The notes beneath the pieces are model-generated. The model was not told the origin of the DNA, did not search any database, and saw only the letters and a list, made by a program, of their open reading frames with translations. A DNA stretch of 64,000 nucleotides from Propylenella binzhouense (GTDB taxonomy: Bacteria > Pseudomonadota > Alphaproteobacteria > Rhizobiales > Afifellaceae). Both the position numbers and the translations under genes were made by a program. Of this stretch, positions 35,732-42,113 are shown one piece after another (within the stretch, counting starts at the first letter, position 1; each line of letters opens with the position of its first letter). The stretch spans positions 1 through 64,000 of the forward strand of contig NZ_SPKJ01000007.1 in NCBI RefSeq assembly GCF_009866965.1, written 5' to 3'.

Positions 35732-36826
35732 TCAGACTCGATCTTGCGTCAACCTCTGCCAGCGCGTTGCGGGGACCGCATAGCTCTTGCCGTCGAACAC
35801 GAACGCAACGCTATGCCGTGCCCGGGTGACGGCCACATACATTTTGGTCGCGGACTTCTCGACGTGCTTGAGATCACCCGTGGCTAGCCATGAAGCTGCC
35901 TTTCCGTGCGGGTAGATCAGGACACGCTCGAAGGTCAGGCCCTTGGCCTCGCCGAAGTTCATCGCCTCGTAGGGCTCGCACTTCGTCTTCGCGGAATAGC
36001 GCAGGACCTGCGGAGTGAAGGCGGCCATGTATGCACCAACGTCGGCGCTCGCTACGAGGAAAATCCCGTCGTGGCCGGTCACCACTGCGTTCCTCGAGAT
36101 GGTCTTCGGCTCGAGCGGGAAGAAGCCGTCGCCGAGGTCGGCGATCGCTTGGTTGCAGCGGTGCGTGTGGCATTCGTAATCAATGGCGACGAGACCGGCC
36201 TTCTTCCACTGCTCGAACTTCTTGATGATGGCCGGGCCGGCGAATCTTTTGTTCTTCGCCGCGTTGTTGGTCGCGAAGGTCGCCTGTCGGTGATCGCCCA
36301 CCAGCGTCGCCGGAATGCCTGACCGGAGGATCAACTCGAGCAGGTCGAGATCGTAGCCCGCCATGTCTTGGATCTCGTCGATGATGAGGTGGGCATAGCG
36401 GGCCTTCAGCCGCCGCATGACGGCACCACCGGAACGCGCGTCGCAGCGACAGATGAACTTGGCGATCTTGTCGGAATAGATGCGGGTGCTGTCCAAGAAA
36501 TAGTGGGCGTCCGTCTTGTCCTCAGGCACATACGGGACCGACTTGCCCTCGACCCAATGGATCCCATCGATGCGCCGACCATGCATCGCCGACCGATACG
36601 GCCGGGCGAGCTCGCGCAGGAGGAAGGAGTACCACGAGAGCACCTCGACGTTCGCCGGGATCACAGTCGATCGTCCGTACGCCTTGAGCTGGATCTCGCG
36701 CACGTTGTTCCGCGTGTAGGTGATCAGCGCGGTGATGCCGCTGTCGTTCGCCAGCGCCTGATCGACGACACGTGTGGTCTTGCCGCCGCCAGCGGCCGAT
36801 ATGACGATGCGGCTAGCGGATGGCAC
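35732..36826 (-). CDS. Compact UvrD-like helicase/ATPase (Gabija GajB-like)
   Basis: 364-aa superfamily 1 helicase-like protein. It has Walker A SAAGGGKTT (10-18), motif Ia TYTRNN (36-41), motif II IIDEIQD (148-154), motif III VGDHRQ (176-181), motif V NFGEAKGLTFERV (290-302) and motif VI YVAVTRAR (330-337). All core motifs are present, but the chain is shorter than GajB (about 490 aa), so the 1B/2B insertions are small or missing. It overlaps the upstream OLD-nuclease gene by 14 bp and must be its partner. In Gabija the helicase-like GajB works with GajA against phage DNA. Its ATG codons are embedded in the end of the OLD gene. Confidence 0.85.
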   Translation of the reverse strand: MPSASRIVISAAGGGKTTRVVDQALANDSGITALITYTRNNVREIQLKAYGRSTVIPANVEVLSWYSFLLRELARPYRSAMHGRRIDGIHWVEGKSVPYVPEDKTDAHYFLDSTRIYSDKIAKFICRCDARSGGAVMRRLKARYAHLIIDEIQDMAGYDLDLLELILRSGIPATLVGDHRQATFATNNAAKNKRFAGPAIIKKFEQWKKAGLVAIDYECHTHRCNQAIADLGDGFFPLEPKTISRNAVVTGHDGIFLVASADVGAYMAAFTPQVLRYSAKTKCEPYEAMNFGEAKGLTFERVLIYPHGKAASWLATGDLKHVEKSATKMYVAVTRARHSVAFVFDGKSYAVPATRWQRLTQDRV

Positions 36827-38411
36827 GGGCGATGTAGTCCGGTGGTGACCAATTGACGTTGGTCTCGAAGAACCTGAGCGCCGTGTCGGCCTTGTGGCTG
36901 GTCATGTACTCGATCGCCGAACCGTCGTCCGAGAACGACTTGCCGAGCACGGCGTTGATCACGGCGAGCCCGTTCTTCTTGAGCAGCTGGGGCTCCAGCG
37001 TCCGCGCGGCCTCATCATCGTCGTACTGGACAGTGACGAGGGGGGAAGTCAGGTAGTCGGCGTATTTCCTTTGCAGAGCGGCGACGTCCCCGTCGTTGTC
37101 GGTCACCACGTCGGTGATGCGCGACAGCTTCACCGCAATCTGCAGGAAGCGCTTGAACGCGAGCGAGTTGACCGAGATCACGTCGACGCCGTCCTCGAGC
37201 GGCATCCTGCCGTGCTTGCGCTGGTAGGCGCGCTGCACGATCAGTTCGTCCGACGGGCCCTCGACCAGGATCGACCGTTGGGCGAGAATCAGCCGCAGCG
37301 TGTCGTGCCCAGGCAGCTTCATGAAATAGTCCTGGGTCGTCTTGTCCTCCAGGTCTGTCAGGTGGAGGCCTTCGCCGCGCTGGAAGAGAAGCACGGATTC
37401 CACGCCGAGCTTGTTCAGCACGAAGCTGCTGTGGGTCGTGATGAAGATTTGTCTCGAGCCGGAATTTGCCGAGATGTGCCCGATCAACTCGTTCAGGCTC
37501 GCATAGGAGAGGTGGTTCTCCGCCTCCTCGATCAGGATGATGTGCGAGTTGGCCGACGTCTCCATCGCGAGCTTGATCTTCACCGAGTTCTGCTCGCCCT
37601 TGCCGACGAGCGTCAGGGGGATCTCGTCCAAGTGTGGCATGATGCCCGCTTCCCAGCTTGCCCGCGAGGACGTGTCGAGCGACACCGAGATGACCTTGTC
37701 GCTGATGCCGCCCTTCCGAGCGGCCAGCGCGTCGTTGATCGACTTCACCTTCGGCTGCTCGAGGAACCGGTCCTTCATCAGGCGGTAGCTGAGCGCCAGG
37801 TCGACCTTCTCCTTGCTGCTCAGGCTCTCCTTCACGATGTTGACAACGTAGCGATTGGCAGCCGCGTTGTTCCTGATCGTGCTGGCGTCGATGAGGCTGG
37901 TCTGCAGCGGGATGCCGCGGGCGTTGCTGATATCGTTTTCCGCGAAGTCGCGCCACTTGATCCAGTAATATTCCACCGGCAGCGTCCGGATCTCCGAGGG
38001 ATCGGCGACATACTGCTGGAAATCCTCGGCGTGGCCGGGGTTGAGTTCGACTACGAGCGAGACGCCTGGCAGGTCCAGACCGAGGCTGTTGTTGTCGCCC
38101 TTGAGCTTTGCGAGGGAGGGATCGTCGGCGAGATAAACCTCGATGAGGATGCTGGGCGGCTCTGCGGGCTCGCCCTTCGCCAGCGCCTTCGCGTAGGTCT
38201 TTACCTGATCGAGATTAAACAGGTAGGGGTGCAGTTCGACGAGGAGCGGCCGTCCGTTGAGTTGCCCCGTCATCGCGAGGTGCACGGCTTCGAGCAACGT
38301 CGACTTCCCGCATTCGTTGTTGCCGACGATGACGTTCAATTTTTCGTTGAGTGTGACGTCCGCCTTTTTCAAGCAGCGGTAGTTCTTCACGACGACACGT
38401 TGGATAAACAC
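36813..38411 (-). CDS. OLD-family ATPase-TOPRIM endonuclease (Gabija GajA-like)
   Basis: 532-aa overcoming-lysogenisation-defect nuclease. N-terminal ABC ATPase: Walker A GNNECGKST (30-38), signature-like VGKGEQNSVK (269-278), Walker B IILIEEAENHLS (291-302) and H-loop TTHSS (325-329), with a helical insertion about 140-240. C-terminal TOPRIM nuclease: ILVEGPSDE (381-389) with the conserved Glu, and VTDNDGD (436-442) with the metal Asp residues. Class 2 OLD enzymes paired with a UvrD-like helicase are Gabija defence systems; GajA (about 580 aa) nicks DNA and is held off by nucleotides. Sequence identity to GajA cannot be judged here, so the name is by architecture. Gene order is OLD then helicase, as in Gabija. 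Confidence 0.88.
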   Translation of the reverse strand: MFIQRVVVKNYRCLKKADVTLNEKLNVIVGNNECGKSTLLEAVHLAMTGQLNGRPLLVELHPYLFNLDQVKTYAKALAKGEPAEPPSILIEVYLADDPSLAKLKGDNNSLGLDLPGVSLVVELNPGHAEDFQQYVADPSEIRTLPVEYYWIKWRDFAENDISNARGIPLQTSLIDASTIRNNAAANRYVVNIVKESLSSKEKVDLALSYRLMKDRFLEQPKVKSINDALAARKGGISDKVISVSLDTSSRASWEAGIMPHLDEIPLTLVGKGEQNSVKIKLAMETSANSHIILIEEAENHLSYASLNELIGHISANSGSRQIFITTHSSFVLNKLGVESVLLFQRGEGLHLTDLEDKTTQDYFMKLPGHDTLRLILAQRSILVEGPSDELIVQRAYQRKHGRMPLEDGVDVISVNSLAFKRFLQIAVKLSRITDVVTDNDGDVAALQRKYADYLTSPLVTVQYDDDEAARTLEPQLLKKNGLAVINAVLGKSFSDDGSAIEYMTSHKADTALRFFETNVNWSPPDYIARAIR

Positions 38412-38910
38412 GAAAGCTCCTCAGTTACCGGCCGTCTACTATGACGGTTACGGTACACAAAAGCGGTGGTGGTCTAAAGTCGCCTTTCATCGGACTTTCA
38501 CCACGCTCCAATTCAGGAGCAGCATTCCGCCAAAACCAGAACGTCGCCTTTGTCGCCGCTTGGCGGGTGGTTGCAATTTGCCATCAGCGCCCATCATTGC
38601 GTTGGCCCCCTTTCATCGTCGACCAGCATGTACGCCGATGTACTCAAGGCCGAGGACGTCTTCCCAAATTAGGTACCAGAATCGGGGTCACAATCTTTCC
38701 CGGTACCGTCGGTCATTCTGCGAGGTCGGTAGAGATCTGCTGAATATCGGCTCCTTGCAACAGCTGCCGTTCGACCAGTCACGTTCGAACGGCAAGAATG
38801 TCCCACGACCGTCATTTGCAGGCTGGTGCGCGCCCCGACACGGAGCCCGTTCCGCCTTTTTATCAGGTCTATCGCGACGCTTTATCGCGTCTCCGGTATG
38901 GGGCTCAAAT
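38412..38910. other. About 500 bp without a recognisable gene
   Basis: Upstream of the OLD gene (which starts at 38411). Open frames here are short and have no ribosome binding site or family motif. The promoter of the defence pair should lie at its left end; I see no clear -35/-10 pair. The right end runs into the 133-bp repeat. Confidence 0.4.
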
Positions 38911-39043
38911 CCTCGGAAATCTCCTGCCGCAGCTTCGGCCCGTTCGCGAGCCTGCGCCCCAGCGCCGCGACGACGGCGTCGTAACGCTCGCCGGCCTGGG
39001 CGCGTGCTGCCGCCTGGGCCGGCCCGGGCAGCGGCGGATTGGT
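38911..39043 (+). repeat. 133-bp repeat, copy 1
   Basis: Direct repeat with 41981-42113. The first 30 bp differ at one position and overall identity looks like about 80 percent. On the minus strand both copies can encode NPPLPxPAQAAARAQAGERY (x is G in copy 1 and E in copy 2) followed by DAVVAALG or DAFVAALA and then GPKLRQEISED, so the repeat is probably a coding relic; the second copy is joined to a traG-like remnant. The two copies flank the amidohydrolase/SDR/TetR module. Confidence 0.7.
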
Positions 39044-41917: not shown

Positions 41918-41980
41918 GCCCACAAAGCGCGGTCGCGGACCCTTTGGACTGCTGCTCAGGCGCCAATGCCGGCTCGATAT

Positions 41981-42113
41981 CCTCCGAAATCTCCTGCCGC
42001 AGCTTCGGCCCCTTTGCGGGCCTGCGGCCAGCGCGGCGACGAACGCGTCGTAGCGCTCGCCGGCCTGAGCCCGGGCGGCGGCCTGCGCCGGCTCGGGCAA
42101 AGGCGGGTTGGTC
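41981..42113 (+). repeat. 133-bp repeat, copy 2
   Basis: Partner of 38911-39043, in the same orientation. On the minus strand it is in frame with a traG/virD4-like C-terminal segment through GEIKQVRCRLTTNPPLP, and a small indel within it shifts the frame after FVAALA. The pair could mark the ends of an inserted module or two remnants of one gene. Confidence 0.7.

Follow-up and report, generated by a model that had tools for sequence, protein, structure and literature searches.

The window analysed here, 64,000 nucleotides of Propylenella binzhouense DNA (contig NZ_SPKJ01000007.1, positions 1 to 64,000), carries on its minus strand two overlapping genes (35732..38411) for an ATPase-TOPRIM protein of the OLD family and a superfamily 1 (SF1) helicase-like NTPase. 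We found that this pair is a real, intact and widespread Gabija-like (GajA-GajB) variant, whose anatomy we did not find described in the literature searched. The pair is probably a Gabija-type, two-gene anti-phage cassette of an old, widespread and reduced form.

The OLD gene (short GajA; 36813..38411, minus strand) starts with GTG and encodes 532 amino acids (aa), and the gene for the helicase-like protein (short GajB; 35732..36826, minus strand) also starts with GTG and encodes 364 aa. Both open reading frames (ORFs) had been proposed in the preliminary description and are confirmed on the minus strand, as is their overlap of 14 bp (36813..36826, minus strand, reading GTGCCATCCGCTAG), which likely couples translation of the two genes. 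Pfam matched AAA_15, AAA_21 and OLD-like_TOPRIM in the OLD protein, and UvrD-helicase and Viral_helicase1 above cut-offs in the helicase. The Gabija architecture that had been proposed is borne out by comparison with hidden Markov models: the best PADLOC model for the OLD protein is GajA PDLC00102 (532 positions, E 4.1e-239) and that for the helicase is GajB PDLC00148 (369 positions, E 8.4e-148), each matched at full length and at a significance that chance does not explain. Two further models, PDLC00098 for GajA (534 positions) and PDLC00140 for GajB (365 positions), also represent this form, and the short GajA and GajB models are again best for the short pairs of Escherichia coli, Streptomyces and Chryseobacterium (3/3 tried). 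Hence, the pair is already filed as Gabija by PADLOC and is not a new system; PADLOC as searched holds no separate subtype or domain description for the short form. An antisense ORF of 516 aa (36894-38444) was rejected as a gene, with no Pfam match.

Relatives were collected from 84,980 species genomes using a nine-member helicase alignment and one degenerate motif-II pattern, DExQD[LM][ASN]G[YW], which misses deep branches such as that of E. coli. The scan yielded 319 relatives; the counts given here rest on the best 80 of the 319, those most like the window, and the spacings on these closer relatives and 8 further members from plasmids or from the order. Helicase motifs I to VI are kept, as had been claimed. 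On the minus strand, motif I lies at residues 10-17 (36776..36799), motif II (DEIQD) at residues 150-154 (36365..36379), motif V at residues 292-296 (35939..35953), which is 72 residues past R223 of motif IV, and motif VI at residues 330-336 (35819..35839). We found G13, K16, T17, D150, E151, Q153, D154, D178, Q181, R223, G292, K295, G296 and R335 invariant in 79/79 aligned short helicases, with the remaining motif positions slightly variable. The second P-loop glycine (G15, before the lysine) is R in 9/79 and H in 1/79, and a Streptomyces plasmid copy (L036) has GSRKT as its motif I.

The preliminary description had remarked that the helicase part is well below the usual size of GajB, and we found where the size is lost. 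Motifs IV and V are 69-75 residues apart in 79/79 short helicases versus 200-248 in 8/8 long GajB proteins, a deficit of about 130 residues relative to canonical GajB; in housekeeping helicases the spacing is 265-270 in 9/10 and 201 in the other (L014). GajB is described as built of four subdomains, 1A, 1B, 2A and 2B, of which the accessory Cacc (2B) subdomain comprises residues 314-416 (PMC10681800). A profile of the 79 short helicases aligns with solved GajB in two blocks (5-247/12-251 and 286-354/420-479), between which a gap of 38 profile positions faces 168 GajB residues. In the AlphaFold2 (AF2) model of the helicase (predicted local distance difference test, pLDDT, 94.7), a strand at 273-276 is followed by a strand at 299-305 with motif V between them, and the top Foldseek match of this model is a chain of the Gabija AB complex. 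Alignment and model indicate that the 2B subdomain is gone from the helicase and that 1A, 1B and 2A are kept, along with the key catalytic residues.

The 1B subdomain is retained: the spacing of motifs I and II, which spans it, resembles that of 6/8 long GajB proteins rather than that of housekeeping helicases. This spacing is 132-162 in the short form and 127-153 in those six long GajB proteins (184 and 216 in the other two); it is 188-199 in 9/10 housekeeping helicases and 369 in L014. Similarly, a proline at the start of 1B (P76) is present in 41/41 short helicases and 7/8 long GajB proteins and in 0/10 housekeeping helicases.

We found that the OLD protein is reduced as well, which the preliminary description had missed. 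Its motifs are present, as that description had held: on the minus strand, Walker A at residues 30-38 (38298..38324), the TOPRIM glutamate E384 (37260..37262), D438-x-D440 (37092..37100), followed by 92 residues only, and K507 (36891..36893), which is likely the counterpart of Bp OLD K562 and Ts OLD R487, whose roles are treated in PMC6755086 and PMC7049728. K36, E296, E384, D438, D440, E473 and K507 are invariant in 71/71 OLD proteins. The tail after the TOPRIM DxD is 88-112 residues in 42/42 short OLDs (drawn from the 71 aligned and 9 others) versus 119-206 in 30/30 long helicase-paired OLDs. In comparison, the class 1 protein Ts OLD (528 aa, D433) has a tail of 95 residues and, judged by pattern, the class 1 proteins YbjD and P2 Old have about 112 and about 131; class 1 can therefore not be defined by the length of the tail alone, the latter two tails being longer than that of Ts OLD.

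Class 2 OLDs are described as having a C-terminal helical domain or insert of about 50 aa more than class 1 (PMC7049728, PMC10568477) and a UvrD/PcrA/Rep-like gene directly downstream, often overlapping (PMC6755086). The OLD studied here has the helicase-like gene downstream and not the helical domain, which, judged by length and predicted secondary structure and not by superposition, is probably missing or much reduced; its AF2 model (pLDDT 81.9) has four helices past the last strand. In Bp OLD, deletion of residues 505-577 of the helical domain is reported to have severely impaired the nuclease (PMC6755086).

The best 80 loci span 15 phyla (79 assigned, with one archaeal metagenome-assembled genome, MAG). 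In 76/80, a frame of 250 codons or more lies upstream and stops somewhere from 5 nt ahead of the helicase gene to 29 nt within it, and the overlap is exactly 14 bp in 42/80. The helicase is 344-392 aa long in 78/80 (L042 and L060 are incomplete), and a full-length OLD of 525-557 aa is present in 70/80. Among the rest, no frame was found at L042, L066 and L103, which lie at the ends of contigs or close to them (L042 is fused to other sequence), the frame runs off the contig at L080, L081 and L090, shorter frames occur at L064, L074 and L112, and a different frame lies 129 nt away at L070. The MAG contig of L042 (1-1200) holds the closest helicase (93% DNA identity), which at residue 41 passes into unrelated sequence, probably through a join made in assembly.

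Plasmids carry the short form often: 1763 of 72,556 plasmid records matched the helicase, all below 60% identity and mostly from Klebsiella (796) and Escherichia (654), and 1122 of the 1763 are typed conjugative. The pair of E. coli plasmids, with proteins of 521 and 340 aa, branches deeply within the short clade in the trees. It is present in 769/5426 complete E. coli genomes, 732 of them with at least 80% of the pair, and 780/790 of its places are on plasmids; no experimental test of a pair of this type was found in the literature searched. In one E. coli and one Klebsiella IncF-type plasmid the pair lies beside vapBC, and in one of these also ccdAB. In another plasmid match (H2/H42, NZ_CP104037.1), the feature under the short GajB match is labelled 'TGBp1 family protein', likely an annotation artefact that probably stems from the Viral_helicase1 match.

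Within the window's order, 27/150 sampled genomes had an OLD-TOPRIM match (E up to 1e-6); three of those 27 (G000, G011 and G145) have the short form, and three more matches are fragmentary. The GajB model PDLC00122 found just two divergent helicases in the 150 genomes, and the long comparators were therefore taken from plasmids. A BLAST comparison of the OLD protein with phage records matched two from Listeria, at 27%. A viral contig from IMG/VR (L031, 1-2671) carries the pair, 77-81% identical, at its extreme edge, which may mark the border of a prophage and not cargo of a phage. By these comparisons the short form is an old, widespread branch and not a local oddity.

Trees were quick maximum-likelihood trees, unrooted, with supports from the SH-like approximate likelihood ratio test (SH-aLRT) and without bootstrap. 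The OLD tree omits three fragments (L134, L148 and L150) and L153, the window itself; a later OLD tree omits L139, L155, L158 and L161, and a thinned helicase tree L014 and L127, as long branches; the later trees omit about half of the short rows. We found that the short OLDs form one clade (SH-aLRT 100, stem 2.18 changes per column), as do the short helicases (SH-aLRT 100, stem 1.38 changes per column). The suggestion of a distinct short-helicase subtype stands to this extent, with the correction that PADLOC already holds models of this form as Gabija. Housekeeping helicases fall on one side of a branch with support of 74 in the fuller tree and 99 in the thinned tree, and the OLD protein is placed among helicase-paired OLDs and not with YbjD and P2 Old, at weak support (76-83). 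The preliminary description had named as contrary to its reading an OLD outside class 2 together with a helicase among housekeeping UvrD paralogues; the best trees show neither.

Both genes appear to have been inherited under constraint. Identities of the OLD and helicase proteins across 70 loci are strongly correlated (Mantel r 0.951; 0/1000 permutations as high, the best being 0.116), and the pair is inherited as a unit. The ratio of nonsynonymous to synonymous substitution rates (dN/dS) ranges over 0.058-0.147 across 17 comparisons, which involve 9 loci, at dS of 1.25-1.87, near saturation, except for L042 at 0.24. These values indicate purifying selection on both genes.

Published work on canonical Gabija suggests how the short pair could act. 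Canonical Gabija forms a 4:4 complex of GajA and GajB, and its phage resistance needs both genes. GajA and GajB contact each other in 1A/1B; the N-terminal region of GajB (1-223) suffices for binding to GajA, and the C-terminal region does not bind (PMC10781630, PMC10822852). Neither of two groups observed unwinding by B. cereus GajB, which shows DNA-stimulated (d)ATP/(d)GTP hydrolysis, and nicking by GajA is inhibited by ATP (PMC10681800, PMC10568477). The Gabija of Pseudomonas aeruginosa is reported to act on the ends of injected phage DNA when RecBCD is excluded from them; the same report says that a Gabija of E. coli ECOR94 has been studied (PMC12407980).

We infer anti-phage function, complex formation, DNA-end sensing and lack of unwinding for the short pair from sequence, as follows. 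OLD dimers or tetramers would carry the ABC-type ATPase and the TOPRIM nuclease, and the short GajB, an SF1 NTPase core (1A and 2A) with 1B, would dock on the OLD ATPase through 1A/1B. There, through binding and hydrolysis of NTP, it would detect ends or single strands of DNA as well as the nucleotide state, and would thereby license the OLD protein to nick or degrade phage DNA. DNA unwinding would not be required and is probably absent; the absence of 2B is compatible with a docked sensor to which unwinding is dispensable.

The cassette shares with the Gabija of B. cereus VD045 an OLD ATPase-TOPRIM gene followed by an overlapping SF1 gene, the catalytic residues, the 1A, 1B and 2A subdomains and the GajB-type proline; unlike it, the short form has no 2B, a shorter TOPRIM tail and a separate deep clade. 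It resembles class 1 Ts OLD, which has no class-2 helical domain, in size and tail, but the genes of Ts OLD, P2 Old and E. coli YbjD stand alone and the present OLD is paired with a helicase. PARIS (AriA) and Septu/retron PtuA have a related ABC-ATPase domain, and neither is known to have an SF1 partner. In PARIS, unlike here, the TOPRIM is described as a separate gene (PMC12796447). Among other proteins, IbfA is a plasmid-borne, 518-aa ATPase-TOPRIM protein for which no named UvrD partner was found, and WonA is described as distinct from Gabija. A GajB without 2B was not found described in the titles, abstract starts and some passages searched, which included few subscription papers and no supplements.

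In the window, the cassette lies among metabolic and regulatory genes (hydrolase, amidohydrolase, NmrA-like and TetR). A relic of the 3' part of the conjugal-transfer gene traG, recognised by DNA match, adjoins it (38909..39043), and a second relic lies at 41971..42112, where the plasmid match continues to about 42268. The two relics are 84-90% alike, flank the block of amidohydrolase, NmrA-like and TetR genes, and share 81% DNA identity with traG of a Rhodopseudomonas plasmid. Of the mobile-region relics that the preliminary description had put here, the conjugation relics, as two TraG 3' ends, are thus present; the transposon relics were not recovered, as no transposase or integrase family was matched in the 47 window ORFs (part of all ORFs) scanned with Pfam. 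In a comparison aimed at finding an empty site, none of 60 relatives spans the cassette site, giving only short DNA matches, the longest flank match (G025, 67%) is to the NmrA-TetR genes on the right, and neither window flank matches loci L031-L121. Further away, a catabolic cluster (4000-27000; TctA/TctC, CoA transferase, AtuA, PrpF, ETF and acyl-CoA dehydrogenase) has a GC content of 0.55-0.65 versus mostly 0.61-0.72 in the rest of the window, as if acquired.

Elsewhere the neighbourhood is richer in defence genes than in controls. We found that 143 genes flanking 47 loci (145 sampled from 271, two longest omitted) match 239 PADLOC families (E up to 1e-15); among these are restriction enzymes of types I and III, methyltransferases, HmaA and DrmD. 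In comparison, 135 control genes from 20 arbitrary stretches of relatives (138, three longest omitted) match 4 families: mad3 in 6 genes, mad8 in 2, and GlgB and ATPase-Toprim in 1 each. The comparison counts families and not genes, many of the 239 are near-duplicate models matched by the same gene, no model is matched by more than 2 of the 143 flank genes, and the controls all belong to a single order, with no matching by phylum. A third conserved component was considered and rejected, as the commonest flanking family occurs in only 7/62 loci (5 xanthomonad or gammaproteobacterial and 2 others) and is by eye RND efflux-like.

Several results weigh against assigning the pair to Gabija. PADLOC names are labels and not tests, and the window ORFs scanned yielded no further defence gene. 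In single-sequence phmmer the helicase matches solved GajB weakly (E 0.05), and the short-helicase profile matches Rep (1.3e-15) and UvrD (1.5e-13) about equally with GajB (6e-14); structurally, the VIA list ranks PcrA/UvrD/Rep over GajB (24.8 versus 18.6). The helicase tree does not unite short and long GajB exclusively, and a less likely tree, in which one side holds long GajB and nothing else, is not rejected by the approximately unbiased (AU) test (p-AU 0.109). For the OLD protein, the short profile matches PtuA (5.6e-15), Ts OLD (1.8e-13) and AriA (4.7e-11) no less well than GajA (6.4e-11), single-sequence similarity to solved GajA is slight (about 4e-4), and the AF2 model is uncertain at about residues 180-280. 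By analogy with Bp OLD, the shortened tail may mean that cleavage differs.

Part of this evidence would suit a class-1-like OLD that acquired an SF1 NTPase as partner separately from canonical Gabija, giving a separate system with a similar licence-and-cut logic. The window's OLD has nearly the tail of Ts OLD, and VIA-align puts Ts OLD (6p74) first for the OLD model (Z 19.4, 435 aligned, root-mean-square deviation, rmsd, 9.2) and GajA second (Z 17.0, 451 aligned, rmsd 9.7), a small margin at high rmsd; the stems to the short clade are long in both trees, and long GajB is not a single group against the rest. We nevertheless consider convergence unlikely: short and long GajB share the 1B proline, housekeeping helicases lie on one side of a branch, the OLD protein falls, if weakly, among helicase-paired OLDs, and gene order and overlap habit are those of Gabija. 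There is a similarly small chance that the pair is a separate system in which a class-1-like OLD is controlled by an SF1 protein without 2B, one incapable of unwinding DNA and serving purely as an NTP-driven DNA-end sensor and clamp; if so, 2B and the TOPRIM helical domain, absent together here, would be two parts of canonical Gabija acting on DNA in concert. The joint absence suggests that the two parts work together, although it cannot show cooperation because it is a single event on the tree. From the sequence comparisons we prefer common descent with long GajB and loss of 2B over independent pairing; loss is not settled against later gain of 2B because the trees are unrooted. A housekeeping UvrD paralogue was rejected: the short helicase has the SF1A core and motifs of UvrD/Rep/PcrA, with high structural Z, but sits beside an OLD gene in its own clade with the shared 1B proline, and shows no 2B, no large 1B and no clustering with cellular paralogues, although the AU test does not exclude this reading.

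The cassette might also act mainly against plasmids or in plasmid upkeep, with phage defence secondary, which would suit the many conjugative plasmids among the matches, the plasmid location in E. coli, vapBC and ccdAB beside the pair in IncF-type plasmids, and the traG relics in the window. We regard this as improbable: restriction, Hma and DISARM-type genes are among the neighbours of the genome loci, and phage defence is common on plasmids, so location alone is not decisive. That the pair is a decayed or truncated canonical Gabija is very improbable; both proteins are shorter than B. cereus GajA (578) and GajB (494), yet their lengths are stable over 15 phyla, the key residues are invariant and dN/dS is low, which refute a decaying gene pair.

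As a reduced form of Gabija, the pair bears on several questions about the family. It is in question whether GajB is a helicase at all, two groups having seen no unwinding, and this can be tested directly on a natural clade in which 2B is absent but the GajA-docking subdomain and NTPase motifs are present. The short pair would also be a minimal complex for structure work. The rule by which long OLDs go with helicases and short ones stand alone does not hold for its clade. Because PADLOC counts the short form as plain Gabija, and because a deep branch of it is in 732/5426 E. coli genomes, what surveys count as 'Gabija' comprises two or more architectures, of which the solved ones, from B. cereus, are long.

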